42,333 bases of DNA, taken from positions 14,939-57,271 of the forward strand of contig NASX01000030.1 of the NCBI GenBank assembly GCA_002085155.1, in the 5' to 3' direction. A model generated the notes under the pieces. It made no database searches. It had not been told where the DNA came from and worked only from the letters and a program-made list of their open reading frames with translations. This document shows positions 14,847 through 22,280 of the stretch, piece after piece. Made by a program: the position numbers and the translations under genes. Position 1 is the first letter of the stretch, and every line of letters starts with the position of its first letter. The DNA is from Sorangiineae bacterium NIC37A_2. Lineage in GTDB: Bacteria > Myxococcota_A > Polyangia > Polyangiales > Polyangiaceae.

Positions 14847-15589
14847 TAGACAAGGTCGACCGCGATCTTCCCCGCGAGTGTGAGGAAAAACAAGAGCGGT
14901 GCGGCCTCCGTCTTGTTCTCGAGCGCCCAGAGTCCGGCCGCGTACGTCGTGAGCGAGAGGGTCGCCCCGAGGCAGGTGAGGCCGAGGGTGACGCCGAAGA
15001 GCGAAAGAGGGCGGGCTTTGAGCGCGCCGAGCGCTGAGGCCAGAGGGGCGAAGAGTGAGGCGGTCGGGCTGCTCAGAGAATGGAGCGCGGTCAACGTTTC
15101 GAACGCGTGAGCGAATGAGCGGCCGATGAGCAGGGCGACAAGTCCTAGGGCGACCGCGTTACCCGGTTCGTGATACGCGTCGCTCTTTCGGGCGAGCGCG
15201 AGGGCTCCGAGGAAAAGGAGGCTACCGAACGTCACGCGGAGCGGAAAGGTGAGGAGCAGCGCCCTGCCGATGCGGCGAAAAGCGATCCCTTCAAAGCCGA
15301 GCGCGGCCCAGGTCGTGACGAGCCGGACGAGCCAAAGGACGACCGAGAGCCCCAAAAAGGCGACCAAGAACGAACTCAAAGCACCCTTCCACTCCTCGAA
15401 GCTGAGGCGCGCGGCATCGAGCAAGAGCAGCATCCCTCCCGAAAGAAGCTCGCTGTCGTCGATCCGCAGACGGAGAACCGGTCGTGCGACCTGTGCCGTG
15501 GCGAGCTCGGAGGCAGCCTTGAGGAACAAGGCGGCGCACAAGATAAACGCAGCGTCTCGGACGAGGCCTCTCATGCCGCTCTGCCTCAT
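14780..15589 (-). CDS. Polytopic membrane protein of unknown function
   Basis: The 269-aa protein has about six hydrophobic segments: DAAFILCAALFLKAAS, LSSFLVAFLGLSVVLWLV, FPLRVTFGSLLFLGALALA, AVALGLVALLIG, LSLFGVTLGLTCLGATLSL and AAPLLFFLTLAGKIAVDLVY. No family motif is recognised. Its ATG overlaps the M1 peptidase stop (ATGA at 15586-15589), so the two are translated together and may work together in the envelope. Its 3' end overlaps the GlgA-like gene on the other strand by 67 bp. Confidence 0.75.
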   Translation of the reverse strand: MRQSGMRGLVRDAAFILCAALFLKAASELATAQVARPVLRLRIDDSELLSGGMLLLLDAARLSFEEWKGALSSFLVAFLGLSVVLWLVRLVTTWAALGFEGIAFRRIGRALLLTFPLRVTFGSLLFLGALALARKSDAYHEPGNAVALGLVALLIGRSFAHAFETLTALHSLSSPTASLFAPLASALGALKARPLSLFGVTLGLTCLGATLSLTTYAAGLWALENKTEAAPLLFFLTLAGKIAVDLVYQRALASAAPSSERLDAPPRSI

Positions 15590-17415
15590 CCGAAGAGTCC
15601 CGAGAGCAGCAGCACGACCAGCGTTCCTAGCAGGCTTTGTGTGCCTGACTGGCGCAGGGCATGGCTCGGCCGATATTGGTTGTTGGTGCGGTTGGGATCG
15701 ATGAAGAGGGACCCTTCCGGATCCAGAGCGAGCTCGACCAAGGGCGAGTGATGATCGAAGGTCAGCTCGGTGCTACCGCGGAGCGAAACGATCTGATCTC
15801 TACCGTCGGCGAAGCGCGCCCGAGCCTGGATGGGCAGGGAGAGCGAACCCTCGAGCTCGACCCGAGCTCGGGTCTTGTAGCCGGATTCTGTCTGGTCGGA
15901 GGTGACGTTCGCAAGGCGATACCCAGCGGAGGCGCCTTCGAGGAGTGCGCGGAGATGGTCGACGGCTTCGGGGGAGAGACGCCCGGAAAGTGCCGCAAAA
16001 AAATCGGCTGTCGTCGGGTGTCCAAAGCGGTGCGCTTCGCTGTAGTCGCGGAGAGCAAGGTCAAACAGCTCGGGGCCATAAACCCGTCGGATCGTCTCGA
16101 GGGCGAGAACGGCGCGCGCGTAGATGGTCCGAGCGAGCTCTTCGAAGCTGCCGTATTCGGGGGCGGACAAGAGCGCGTTCGGCTTTTTCCCCCCGATACC
16201 CAAAAACCGCCACACGGCGGGCTCCGAGAGCTCGAGCACCGGGGAGCTCAACAGGCTACCGCTACCAAAAGTGCGCTCGAGGTAGCGGTATTCCGCGAGC
16301 GTCGCGAGGGACTCATCGAGCCAGGGTTCGCGGTACTCGTTGGATCCGAGCATGCCTTGAAACCACTGGTGGGAGAGCTCGTGAGCTGTGACGAGTTCGA
16401 GAGCGTGGGCCCCGAGCGCGATGGGCCAACCGAGGTCGCCGGTTGTGATGAATTGAGGATATTCCATGCCGCCGGCGGGAGCCGCGAATCGAGGCGGATG
16501 GACCACCGTGAGGGAAGGGTGGGGATAGGACCCGTAACGGGCACCGTTGTCGGAGAGGACCGCCGCGACCGTCGCGAAATAGCGGGGGAAAAGCCGTCTT
16601 TCACTTTCCGGCAGGAGGATCTTGACCTGGACATGGTCGACGGTCCGCTCTTCACTGACGAACCCAGGCCAGGCGGTGAAGGCGAAATCGTGCACCCGCG
16701 TTGCCCTGCTCAGATATACCTCGCGCCCGCCGCTCGCTTTCTGCCGGGTGAGTGATCCTGTGCTGCCGATCCGGTAGCTCTCTGGGACATTCAGCTCGAT
16801 CTGATAAGATCCAAAGTTGGCGGCGAACTCGGCGAGCGGGTGATAGCTGAAATGGTCAAACGCGCCTGAGGGCGAGAGCCGGGCCAGCTTGGGGTAGAAC
16901 GCAGAGACGAGGTGAAAGTCGCCGGCGTACCCGCTGCGTTCGACGATCTCCGGCAAGCGCGTCTCGAACTCAACGTCGAGCGTCATGCTCTGCCCGGGCG
17001 CAAGCGGGAGGGGCAGGGGCACCATGATGTCCGTGCGATCCTGGGGGTCTCCGGGCGAGTGAGGCGCAGCATTTTCCCAGAGGTTTTCCGGGCCATTTTC
17101 TCGCCAGACGAGCGAGTGGATCTCTGTCCTGCCCGGGCGTCCGAGGCTTCGGGCGCTGCGACTTCCAGTCGCGCCTGTGGGCAGAGGCCGGAGGAAAACC
17201 GTGCGCTCGTGCTCGAAGGCGTTCATGTAGAGATGGAACCAGAGCTCTTTGAGCTCGCGCTGGGTCGTGTTCCGAAAGGAGATCGCCGCCTGGCCCCTGA
17301 CCGCGTGCTCCTTCTCGTCGAGACGGAGCTCCATCGTGTAATCGACCGTTGGCCACGCGCCGAGCGTCGCTGCGAGCAAGGGAGCACTCAGCCAGCTCAC
17401 ATCTGCTCCGCCCAC
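15586..17415 (-). CDS. Exported M1-family zinc metallopeptidase
   Basis: The protein is 609 aa. The zinc site HELSHQW (His345, Glu346, His349) with the third ligand Glu368 in WLDESLA is the gluzincin pattern. GGMEYP (315-320) stands where aminopeptidase N has GAMEN and probably binds the substrate N-terminus. The N-terminal domain (WPTVDYTMELRLDEKEHAVRG) is the usual M1 beta saddle. The start region (VSWLSAPLLAATLGA) is a short signal-peptide-like stretch. The C-terminus ends in a hydrophobic tail (LLGTLVVLLLSGLFG) that could anchor it in a membrane. The long ERAP-type C-terminal domain is absent. It starts with a GTG, is coupled by ATGA to the downstream membrane protein, and follows the winged-module protein by 8 bp. 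Confidence 0.88.
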   Translation of the reverse strand: MGGADVSWLSAPLLAATLGAWPTVDYTMELRLDEKEHAVRGQAAISFRNTTQRELKELWFHLYMNAFEHERTVFLRPLPTGATGSRSARSLGRPGRTEIHSLVWRENGPENLWENAAPHSPGDPQDRTDIMVPLPLPLAPGQSMTLDVEFETRLPEIVERSGYAGDFHLVSAFYPKLARLSPSGAFDHFSYHPLAEFAANFGSYQIELNVPESYRIGSTGSLTRQKASGGREVYLSRATRVHDFAFTAWPGFVSEERTVDHVQVKILLPESERRLFPRYFATVAAVLSDNGARYGSYPHPSLTVVHPPRFAAPAGGMEYPQFITTGDLGWPIALGAHALELVTAHELSHQWFQGMLGSNEYREPWLDESLATLAEYRYLERTFGSGSLLSSPVLELSEPAVWRFLGIGGKKPNALLSAPEYGSFEELARTIYARAVLALETIRRVYGPELFDLALRDYSEAHRFGHPTTADFFAALSGRLSPEAVDHLRALLEGASAGYRLANVTSDQTESGYKTRARVELEGSLSLPIQARARFADGRDQIVSLRGSTELTFDHHSPLVELALDPEGSLFIDPNRTNNQYRPSHALRQSGTQSLLGTLVVLLLSGLFG

Positions 17416-17423
17416 GTCATGGG

Positions 17424-18431
17424 TTATCCGATCGTGATGACTTTTCGATCCAGAAGCTCACAGAGGATACGCATCGAATCGAGCCGACTCATGCCCGACA
17501 CGTCGAGAATTTCCTCGAGCGTAGAGAGGCCGTCGACCATTGAAAGCAAAAACCCGGCTCGGTGGTCGAGGGAGAGCCAGCGGAGCTGTTCGGGAGACAT
17601 GATGATGCGGGGAGGCTCGTCCAGGTTACTGAGACGGCTTCCGTACATGTCGAAAAGGACATCACGACATTTCTCCGCGAGGCTGGCCGCTTCTTTCTGA
17701 TCCGGACTCTTGCTCAGGATCCCCTCGGCGATGGCCAGGGCGCCGGAGAAATCCCCCATCGCGAAACGATCGCGCATTTCGAGCAGTGCTTCTCCATCTT
17801 CCGGTGGAGCGCTCGTGTAGCTCGGGAACTCGTAGCTCACCGCAGCGTGAGAGCGCGGCGTGATGGAGCGTGGGGGGCGCAAAGTTGCATCCAGCGCTGG
17901 CCCGTTCCAGGCTGCTGGGGAGGAGGGGGGCGGGAAGGACGCGGGCCTATCGCGAACGACGGGGCCGGAGGACGCCGGATCTTTCGGCATGCTCGGTGGA
18001 GCCGTGGGCATGGCGCTCGGGTGCAGCAAGGTGAAATCAGAGCCAGGTCCCTGGCTCAGTTCGCGCTGCAGGTCCCGCTCAAAGTCAGGATCAGGAGCTC
18101 GCGGGGGAGCGGGCGCGAGAGCTTCCGCTTCGCGGTCGAGGATCGCCGGTGGAATGCCCTCAAGACCTGCGTTTTCGCCTCCGAAGCCGTCGCCGAGGTC
18201 AATCGCAGCAGCCATGAGACGCCTTGCGAATTCGTCCCCCGGGACCTCGGGGATGGCCGTGACTCGATCGGCCGTATCCTCCCCACCAGCGGGCTGGTTG
18301 GATCGAACGATAACGTGGGTCGAGGTAGGGTAAACGACGGTCGGAGGCTCCTCGCCCCACTTGTAGTCGATATCGTCCAGATCCTCCGGAGGGAGGGCAG
18401 GGCGGGGAGGTCGAGAGCCCGGCGAGTTCAT
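17424..18431 (-). CDS. TPR-like protein with C-terminal winged module
   Basis: This 335-aa protein has a long, acidic and Pro-rich, probably disordered first half. A TPR-like helical pair follows at ~217-262 (EMRDRFAMGDFSGALAIAEG, then KSPDQKEAASLAEKCRDVLF). The C-terminal module (~273-335) is WLSLDHRAGFLLSMVDGLST, then LEEILDVSGMSRLDSMRILC and ELLDRKVITI, and looks like a winged helix. The same pattern occurs at the N-terminus of the J-domain protein two genes upstream. No enzyme motif is seen. The ATG at 18431 was chosen (a TTG two codons earlier is possible); it lies 23 bp after dnaK and 8 bp before the M1 gene. It is probably an adaptor or regulator; function unknown. Confidence 0.75.
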   Translation of the reverse strand: MNSPGSRPPRPALPPEDLDDIDYKWGEEPPTVVYPTSTHVIVRSNQPAGGEDTADRVTAIPEVPGDEFARRLMAAAIDLGDGFGGENAGLEGIPPAILDREAEALAPAPPRAPDPDFERDLQRELSQGPGSDFTLLHPSAMPTAPPSMPKDPASSGPVVRDRPASFPPPSSPAAWNGPALDATLRPPRSITPRSHAAVSYEFPSYTSAPPEDGEALLEMRDRFAMGDFSGALAIAEGILSKSPDQKEAASLAEKCRDVLFDMYGSRLSNLDEPPRIIMSPEQLRWLSLDHRAGFLLSMVDGLSTLEEILDVSGMSRLDSMRILCELLDRKVITIG

Positions 18432-18454
18432 CTCCAATCAGCCCGATTTTTGAT

Positions 18455-20278
<1,824 letters not shown>

Positions 20279-20497
20279 GTGATCCTTTTCTGCCTCCGCT
20301 GACTCTCGCTGGGAGCGTAGCATACCGGCGTTCCTTCAGTTTACGCCACAGCGCGACTGAAAATTGAGGGAGGCGAAAGTGCGCCCATTTCATGGCTCTC
20401 TCGAGCTTCGGGGGCTCTTTCGGGCGGGGTGCCCAGGCGCGACCCCGCTCACCATATGCTGGTCCCCCGTCCAGGTACTGGCGGGATCGGGAAGCAC

Positions 20498-22108
20498 TTA
20501 ACGAAGCTGTTTTTGAAGCGCTCGGGCCACTTCGTTGTCAGGCTCAAGCTCGAGGGCGCGCTGCACTTCACCCTGAGCGCTCGAGCGCATGCCGAGCTTT
20601 TCGTAGGCGCGCGCCAGGTCGAGGCGATATTCGACCTTCTTGCCGTTCGCGGCGACGGCTCGCCGCGCGAGCTCGGCGACCTTCTTGAGAGAGGCACCTT
20701 CCTTGGCCGCGCAGATTGCAGCTTCGCGGTAGTAACGGGCAGCGTCGGCGAGGAGTCCTGCGCTTTCCTTCCCGCGGGCGGCGCGTTCGTAAGAGCGGGC
20801 GGCGCGTTCGTAATAGCCGTCTCGCTGCTCGTATTGCGCCTGTTGTACGAACTTGTCGGCAAGCTCGCGATCGGCCTCGATCGAGGCTTGGGTGAGGGCG
20901 TCTCGGATCGCAACGTCGTCCGGCGCGAGCGAGGCCGCGATGCGGAGTGCGTTGACGTAGGAGGGGTAGTCCTTGCTCTCGCGGGCCGAGTTGGCCATTG
21001 AGACGTAATAGGCCGCCGCGCTTGCCTGGCTCTCGGCGCGAGCGTCGAAGCGATCTTTGAGCTCTCGAGCGACGCGCTCCCGGGTCGTCTCCGGATCGCT
21101 CGGCGGAAGTGACGACGGGTTCTCTGAGCGGCCCTCTCCGCTGCGAAACCCGAGTTTACGCGCAAGCAGCCTGCGCCCTGTAATCGGATCGGCGCTGATG
21201 CGCTCAGAGTTCACCTCGGAGGCGTGGGAAGGCGAGGGGATCGTCGGAACAGAGCCCGCGAGCTCAGCTGGCTCAAAGGCCGGAGCAGCGGGCGCTCTCG
21301 GAATCGACGGATTGTCGGAGGAGTCCGCGTCGCCGCTCCTCGGGGGTGCACCGGTCGGGGGCAACGAATCCCGGACCCCGTGGGTCTCCCGGCGGCTCGC
21401 GAGATACTGGTCGTACTCGGCGCGGGTCTTGGCGCGGCTGAGCGTGTCCTGCGCTTTGGTCAGGGCACTCGAAATTCTCTCGAGCTTCGAGCGGAAGATC
21501 CCGAGATTTTTTCCATAGAAGCGATCGGTGTGAAACTGTTGGATGAGTGTGAAGTAGGCGCGCTTGATCGCGGCTTTCTCGGCGTCCTCTGGCACACCTA
21601 AGAGTTCATAGTGTGTGGCCCGGGGGAGGAGTGCTTCCAGCTCCAAGATCTTCTCTTTGGTCGCTCGGTCGAGATCCGCCGGCTCATCGAGCAAGCTCAC
21701 ATCGTAAGCGGGAGCCCGGGGCTTGAGGTCGAGGATCGAATCTCGGGAGGCCGACGCAGGGTTCGCCGGCGGCGAGCTGGCCGATGAATGGGGCGGCGGC
21801 GCGCTGATAGAAGGGCTCGGATAGGGCGAGGCTCTTGGCGGACTCGGGGGAGCAGGGCTGGGGGGCGGTGGAGCGATAGCCGGCGGAGAACGGTACCCTT
21901 CGTGACGGAAGCTGACCGCTCCGAGGGACTCGAGCCGATCGAGGATCTCTTCGACGTCGCCTTCGCCGAGTCCAGTAGTGATGGCGATCTGGCTGACGCC
22001 AGCGAGTCCATCCAAGCGGCTCAGGACGAAGGCTTCCTTGGGACCGATGGGCAGGGTCCTCCAATCGAGGCCTGGCCTGGGTGTCGGGCGGCGGGGAGAC
22101 TCATCCAT
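20498..22108 (-). CDS. Winged module/J-domain/TPR hybrid with HTD motif
   Basis: This 536-aa protein has three parts. Residues ~14-68 are a winged-helix-like module (IGPKEAFVLSRLDGLAGVSQ, GLGEGDVEEILDRLESLGAV) like the C-terminus of the gene two positions downstream. A Pro/Ser-rich linker follows. Residues ~166-237 are a J-domain: HYELLGVPEDAEKAAIKRAY, FTLIQQFHTDRFYGKNLG, and AQDTLSRAKTRAEYDQYL. The loop that stimulates Hsp70 reads His193-Thr194-Asp195 where J-proteins have HPD. The last ~190 residues are TPR-like helices (YERAARSYERAARG, RLDLARAYEKLGM). No zinc fingers are present. The ATG at 22108 was chosen; a TTG at 22129 is possible. It is the first gene of the run and is the probable partner of the DnaK that follows 219 bp later. 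Confidence 0.85.
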   Translation of the reverse strand: MDESPRRPTPRPGLDWRTLPIGPKEAFVLSRLDGLAGVSQIAITTGLGEGDVEEILDRLESLGAVSFRHEGYRSPPAIAPPPPSPAPPSPPRASPYPSPSISAPPPHSSASSPPANPASASRDSILDLKPRAPAYDVSLLDEPADLDRATKEKILELEALLPRATHYELLGVPEDAEKAAIKRAYFTLIQQFHTDRFYGKNLGIFRSKLERISSALTKAQDTLSRAKTRAEYDQYLASRRETHGVRDSLPPTGAPPRSGDADSSDNPSIPRAPAAPAFEPAELAGSVPTIPSPSHASEVNSERISADPITGRRLLARKLGFRSGEGRSENPSSLPPSDPETTRERVARELKDRFDARAESQASAAAYYVSMANSARESKDYPSYVNALRIAASLAPDDVAIRDALTQASIEADRELADKFVQQAQYEQRDGYYERAARSYERAARGKESAGLLADAARYYREAAICAAKEGASLKKVAELARRAVAANGKKVEYRLDLARAYEKLGMRSSAQGEVQRALELEPDNEVARALQKQLR

Positions 22109-22280
22109 TTGACGTCGTACAAGGATCAATCAACTGGCAGCGGGCGGCAAATGCAACAGTTTCGCGTCATGCTGCCGGAAATGCGGGCTCCCCAAGAGCC
22201 CGCCTGCCTTGATGTCTGCGCGCGCCGGGCCCGAAAATGTCTCGTCGGGCCTTCCCGCCAGCGTCCGAGCCTGCCATGAG

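Follow-up and report, generated by a model that had tools for sequence, protein, structure and literature searches.

The locus examined here raises the question of whether a J-domain can still trigger its Hsp70 partner when the proline of the HPD motif has been exchanged for threonine. The window, that is, the whole 42,333-nucleotide stretch of DNA that was analysed, carries on its minus strand a gene for a J-domain protein of 536 amino acids (20498..22108). The frame opens with an ATG at 22108, with an alternative TTG 21 bases upstream at 22129, and its translation includes ...TLIQQFHTDRFYGKNLG... The trigger loop reads QQFHTDRFYGKNLG; within it H193-T194-D195, specified by the minus-strand codons CAC-ACC-GAT (21532-21524), occupy the place of HPD. 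The substitution had been reported in an initial annotation, whose reading the translated frame confirms, as it does the numbering of the threonine as residue 194 from the ATG; the loop FHTDRFYGKN, given there as 21508-21537, was two bases off and spans 21506-21535. The annotation also pointed to a partner DnaK next door, and such a gene does lie directly downstream on the same strand (18455..20323). Its product scores 710.4 bits against Pfam HSP70 (PF00012) and 777.9 bits against NCBIfam PRK00290 (cut-off 648); the ORF runs from an ATG at 20323, and conservation sets in at another ATG, at 20278.

The domain bearing the altered loop is a real J-domain. Residues 165-233 match the full Pfam DnaJ model (PF00226, positions 1-63) with 36.7 bits against a cut-off of 27.8 (E 4.4e-9); of the HPD tripeptide itself, His and Asp are present and Pro is absent. 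A predicted model of the protein, built on 26 sequences (mean pLDDT 80.7), suggests a small N-terminal domain (approximately residues 1-68), a disordered Pro/Ser-rich linker, the J-domain, a further disordered linker and a C-terminal helical array (339-536). In the modelled J-domain hairpin, helix II (178-192) is followed by the loop and by an uninterrupted helix III (205-224), with H193 outside the helix, a short helix at 194-197 and pLDDT block means of 94-97 over residues 161-240. The portion of the array from 415 to 536 matches TPR structures, such as HOP TPR1 (1elw_A: Z 17.4, rmsd 2.1, 115 residues aligned), and the matches of the structure search were filled by TPR domains, leaving the J-domain and the N-terminal domain uncovered. 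When the protein was scanned against Pfam and NCBIfam, DnaJ alone exceeded its cut-off, with only TPR models and Yme1-like_N below it (to E 5). Neither a zinc finger nor a DnaJ C-terminal domain was found in the Pfam scan and, judged by these two absences, the protein is class C-like.

The two genes are followed by a third, encoding 337 amino acids for which no Pfam or NCBIfam family was found (17424..18437, minus strand), and by the last gene of the string, for an M1-type metallopeptidase (15586..17415, minus strand; Pfam Peptidase_M1). A J-protein gene directly upstream of dnaK, then the third gene, is the order that defines what we call the myxobacterial J-DnaK operon. It recurs in 15 of 20 stretches from related genomes, with DnaKs 69-80% identical to that of the window, and in nine of these 15 a relative of the peptidase adjoins the string. 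The five remaining stretches comprise second copies without DnaK (L043, L048, L051), one at a contig end (L041, from the same-genus genome G002) and one from G038 (L057). Named GTDB genomes scanned for a pattern from the N-terminal domain, clear of the HPD site, yielded 183 relatives; among the best 80, a DnaK relative stands beside the J-protein in 74 loci, and the motif reads HPD in 77 and HTD in three. Polyangium, Sorangium and Labilithrix are among the named holders of J-protein relatives. GrpE was not found by Pfam among the six window proteins scanned. The possibility that the window DnaK corresponds to SglK (MXAN_6671) was rejected on gene order: according to the available text of PMC11019930, SglK is preceded by the GrpE homologue MXAN_6672 and has no neighbouring J-protein gene, whereas the window DnaK is preceded by a J-protein, with no GrpE among the six proteins. 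One Myxococcaceae genome encodes three DnaKs over the PRK00290 cut-off, so that elimination does not settle which is which.

To place the threonine among its relatives, loci L001-L009, L011-L139 and L170-L270 were pooled with the window, giving 237 J-domain rows. A row was kept if a same-strand DnaK lay between -800 and +1500 bases, and identical J-domains were merged, which left 130; among the 22 rows dropped because no DnaK was visible were the HTD forms L070 (at a contig end) and G038 (twice, as L038 and L057), the RFE form L041 and L008, an SPD J-domain of a different kind. In the family to which the window belongs, the search took in 108 genomes, and the stronger of the places listed were read, 71 being fetched, so that the sample covers part of the genomes. 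Among the 130 non-redundant DnaK-adjacent J-proteins, the motif at position 34 is HPD in 124, HTD in five and HSD in one, and its His and Asp are invariant (130 of 130). With Pro at position 34 in 124 of 130 such relatives, the departure from it in the window cannot be put down to chance. The HSD form (L228, from G019) is an operon J-protein with the codon TCG, beside an operon-type DnaK. HTD was also seen in J-protein relatives with no DnaK alongside (L057 of G038 and L273 of G050), and the window's own genome (G000, contig 30) contains another J-domain-like stretch, L008, with SPD for HPD.

A single base separates ACC from CCC, the window's genome is assembled in 150 contigs and another genome of the genus, G001, reads HPD; all this would suit a transient mutation confined to one genome, or a mistake in sequencing or assembly. 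Yet HTD stands at a J-DnaK-type locus in eight genomes of three families (the window's genome and G036; G057; G050, G043, G131, G056 and G130), to which the HSD form must be added, and errors would hardly give only Thr or Ser or be common to all sampled members of a family. We consider a neutral or erroneous letter quite unlikely. A FastTree phylogeny of 122 DnaK rows requires five changes to account for the six non-HPD forms, a number forced by the strongly supported branches alone; an IQ-TREE of 74 rows, made once near copies, short DnaKs and rows that were deep or long had been taken out, requires the same five. The window pairs with G001 with a support of 99 in both trees, and the only non-HPD forms that group together are L056 and L072, both from the family of G050; clustering of non-HPD forms is weak at most, 36 of 500 shuffles (122 rows) and 68 of 500 (74 rows) scoring as low. 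Orthologues beside this DnaK were where the initial annotation had proposed to look for the threonine. Within the genus it is not conserved, and the change is local there because G001 has HPD and G002 lacks it; elsewhere the threonine recurs beside the same kind of DnaK.

The family of G050 was then searched as a whole. All five genomes sampled from it, in three genera, carry HTD at a J-DnaK-type locus; DnaK is seen adjoining in three, and in the other two the contig ends too early. The motif looks fixed and long kept in this lineage, since two of its HTD J-domains share only 68% of their remaining positions and thus differ at about one third of them. Other J-domains read among the 30 loci of this search were HPD in 14 of 15 cases, L299 being without the motif. 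G050 carries a second HTD copy (L273), with no DnaK seen within 1.5 kb. In the family of G057, HTD was found in one of seven genomes. The five origins led to Thr four times and to Ser once. That all five should fall on these two residues has a probability of about 0.004 if the six residue classes one base away from CCN are taken as equally likely, a figure that ignores mutation bias and rests on a post hoc grouping; a mutational preference for CCC to ACC could account for Thr being in excess. Taken as a sequence pattern, this history argues that Pro-to-Thr exchange in the J-DnaK operon family is no simple accident.

If proline is dispensable, one explanation would be that the partner has changed to compensate for its absence, the co-evolution offered in the initial annotation. 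In E. coli, as described in the available part of PMC8215388, His33 contacts L391 in the linker, Pro34 contacts P419, and Asp35 contacts R167 and Q378. Counting rows in which the column is present (one DnaK partnering an HTD/HSD form is cut by a contig end, hence five rows or six), R167 is kept in 6/6 partners of HTD/HSD forms and 117/117 partners of HPD forms, P419 in 5/5 and 115/115, L391 in 5/5 and 116/116, and Q378 in 5/5 and 113/116, the other three having His. At every column conserved at 97% or more, the window DnaK has the conserved residue. Among columns conserved at 90% or more, none is changed in all partners of HTD/HSD forms; five differ in two or three such partners each, and none of these is a named contact site. 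With the docking residues unchanged, co-evolution of DnaK with HTD finds no support at this site. It could draw on the joint encoding of the pair (15 of the 20 stretches; 74 loci among the best 80 of 183) and on an unusual interface in the family, at which J position 26 is aromatic in 123 of 130 proteins and DnaK position 217 is Lys or Arg in 101 of 123. This interface, however, is common to HPD members and so is not tied to Thr, and the shortened loop near 208-211 is found in the other DnaKs compared as well. Compensation by DnaK is, in our estimation, very improbable.

The interface deserves a remark of its own. The corresponding residues of E. coli are Lys at J position 26 and Glu at DnaK 217 (E. 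coli numbering). J position 30 covaries with DnaK 217, although along clade lines, and cross-tables of J positions against DnaK 217 are confounded in the same way. A family-wide rewiring of charge (aromatic J 26, loss of the acids at DnaK 208 and 211, Lys at 217) was considered as the signature of a private pair and given up, the short loop being present in other DnaKs too; only positions 217 and 26 remain of it.

The reading that we favor, with a probability of roughly one half, is that the trigger tolerates HTD in an otherwise largely orthodox J-domain co-chaperone of the myxobacterial J-DnaK operon, and that it is possibly weakened in the window by the loss of a helix III phenylalanine (see below). 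In the canonical domain, Pro34 would stop helix II in such a way that His33 and Asp35 face the same side, and a residue of low helix propensity could do much of this work. Thr and Ser are weak helix formers and may for this reason keep a helix stop that Ala would not. The retained His and Asp would make the contacts with the linker and Arg167, so that contact between the J-domain and the operon DnaK would persist, while the TPR array and the N-terminal domain would bring clients or a location. HTD is probably slower than HPD, and the window protein may stand a further step down. In simulations described in the accessible text of PMC13012618, helix II becomes longer with P34A, and His33 and Asp35 are no longer held in their orientation; the same text states that in some systems even a change of HPD to AAA does not fully abolish activation. 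We thus infer retained stimulation, a helix-stop role for Thr, some weakening and the operon DnaK as partner from a set of sequence patterns: the invariance of His and Asp, at least five independent changes, retention in the family of G050, exchange for Thr or Ser only, conserved docking residues on DnaK, no speed-up of the J-domain and the contrast offered by G002.

Several points speak against tolerance. A 2026 review, in the part available (PMC13254874), presents HPE as the only replacement seemingly tolerated, HPN and QPD abolishing stimulation, and leaves undecided whether deviations from HPD are accidents or were selected. Thr would also lose the hydrophobic contact of Pro34 with P419 described in the available text of PMC8215388. 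The role of Pro, whether as helix stop, as P419 contact or as both, rests in the literature excerpts at hand on a structure and simulations; the contacts of His and Asp are clear. Finally, the loss of the phenylalanine in the window together with the loss of the motif in a genome of the same genus could mean that the J-domain is decaying in this genus.

The claim that the rest of the J-domain is intact, made in the initial annotation, does not fully hold. Seven J-domain columns outside HPD are conserved at 93% or more, and the window departs at one of them: Ser213 (codon 21470..21472, minus strand, computed from the ATG at 22108; alignment column 53) takes the place of a helix III Phe present in 123 of the 124 HPD relatives, the exception (L123) having His. 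The four other HTD forms keep all seven columns, and the HSD form departs at another one. Counted from Ala219 and Leu223 in ungapped register, the missing residue would be Phe47 of E. coli DnaJ, one of the contact residues named in the available part of the 2026 simulation paper (PMC13012618). The HMMER alignment to E. coli DnaJ interrupts helix III with a gap and would set Leu opposite Phe47, the Ser then standing at a family-conserved Phe other than Phe47; we prefer the ungapped register because helix III is continuous over 205-224 in the model. Since this Phe is lost in addition to Pro, stimulation is probably weaker in the window species.

One could then envision that the J-domain of the window's genus is losing its trigger altogether and docks on DnaK, or merely sits near it, without stimulating, as a type IV or pseudo J-protein would, other J-proteins serving DnaK instead. 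Docking alone was also entertained in the initial annotation, and for the window protein it retains some standing: among the six HTD/HSD forms only this one has Ser at the helix III Phe, at least two canonical-looking HPD J-proteins are encoded elsewhere in the genome (L001 and L002), and the review calls type IV J-proteins presumably nonfunctional (PMC13254874, available part). Same-genus G002 points in the same direction. Its J-protein relative (L041; contig 434, 3-1442) has the loop FRFE, hence RFE for HPD, and no N-terminal domain was seen in its frame; its neighbour is an NtrC gene with 64% identity to the one located close to the J-protein of the window. Neither the operon DnaK nor the third gene was found in a search of that genome, the third gene giving no match, and for the peptidase there was only a distant match at 26%, not an orthologue. 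G002 has two DnaKs over the PRK00290 cut-off, and the window's genome and G001 have three each. The operon has likely been lost in G002, although a gap is possible in an assembly that is 89% complete and whose contig ends at the J-gene. In G001, the gene string is present, with a DnaK about 80% identical to that of the window.

Other evidence weighs against a lost trigger. Relative to its DnaK, the window J-domain has not diverged beyond expectation (rank 60 of 111), and fast evolution was looked for and not seen; 17 of 124 HPD forms likewise depart at one or more of the seven conserved columns; and both the His and Asp of the motif and the docking residues of DnaK are kept. In G002, for which no partner was found, His and Asp have disappeared; beside a DnaK, with Thr or Ser in place of Pro, both remain. 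For HTD in general, docking only becomes less likely because all 130 DnaK-adjacent relatives have His and Asp, HTD is common to five of five genomes of the G050 family and the window J-domain shows no speed-up. We consider a lost trigger in the window's genus, the chief competing reading, doubtful, though it is to be taken seriously.

Tolerance of HTD can also be put in more general terms. It is tempting to propose, at slightly under even confidence and from sequence comparison, that HTD and HSD represent a second working state of the trigger, in which Pro has given way to a hydroxyl residue without a change in Hsp70, a state reached five times or more within a single operon family and kept across a bacterial family. 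Myxobacteria are rich in Ser/Thr kinases, and in a bolder version of this proposal the Thr or Ser may be a phosphorylation site that gates the co-chaperone. If the proposal is true, it warns against annotating every non-HPD J-protein as inactive. The repeated exchange of Pro alone beside an unchanged DnaK amounts to a natural test of the need for proline, and natural HPD/HTD pairs with DnaKs about 80% identical are available, G001 and the window being an example.

These properties invite comparison with known J-proteins, for which we draw on the available text of the review (PMC13254874). As in class C J-proteins with TPRs, such as human DNAJC7, the J-domain of the window protein is not N-terminal, the chain contains a TPR-like array, and no zinc-finger or C-terminal domain was found; unlike them, the window protein has in addition a small domain at its N-terminus that is akin to the end of the third gene's product, and reads HTD. 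With type IV or pseudo J-proteins (Pam16, or DNAJB13 with HPL) it shares a recognisable J-domain whose HPD is non-conservatively replaced, here Pro by Thr, and by that definition it is one of them, a label that proves nothing on activity. In contrast to Pam16 and DNAJB13, the window family keeps His and Asp, in the cases seen exchanges Pro for Thr or Ser only, and has its gene beside an intact DnaK. A further comparison is with E. coli DjlB and DjlC (HPE), in which an altered HPD is likewise paired with a particular Hsp70, HscC; there, however, Asp is changed and the Hsp70 is divergent, whereas in the window Pro is changed and DnaK passes the PRK00290 cut-off. Among open-licence PMC papers, a collection in which subscription papers are mostly uncovered, none combining HTD with J-domain terms was found.

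In Myxococcus xanthus, itself a myxobacterium, the J-protein MXAN_3015 and the DnaK MXAN_3016 have neighbouring locus numbers (PMC11019930 and PMC8265645, available parts), a likeness to the window pair. MXAN_3015 is reported to bind MxDnaK1 and not MxDnaK2 (PMC11019930), and sporulation and oxidative resistance fell when any one of four minor hsp70 genes, including MXAN_3016, was deleted (PMC8265645), both statements as given in the accessible text. Should the window pair be orthologous to MXAN_3015 and MXAN_3016, its J-protein may act for the housekeeping DnaK as well.

A stretch similar to the J-protein's N-terminal domain (21881-22108, minus strand) lies at the C-terminus of the third gene's product (17427-17699, minus strand); BLASTP aligns the two with 32% identity over 62 columns (E 9e-7). 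The pattern LSRVDGxxSxxDIAxxTGL...LxxLGAV is reminiscent of PqqD/RRE-like winged domains.
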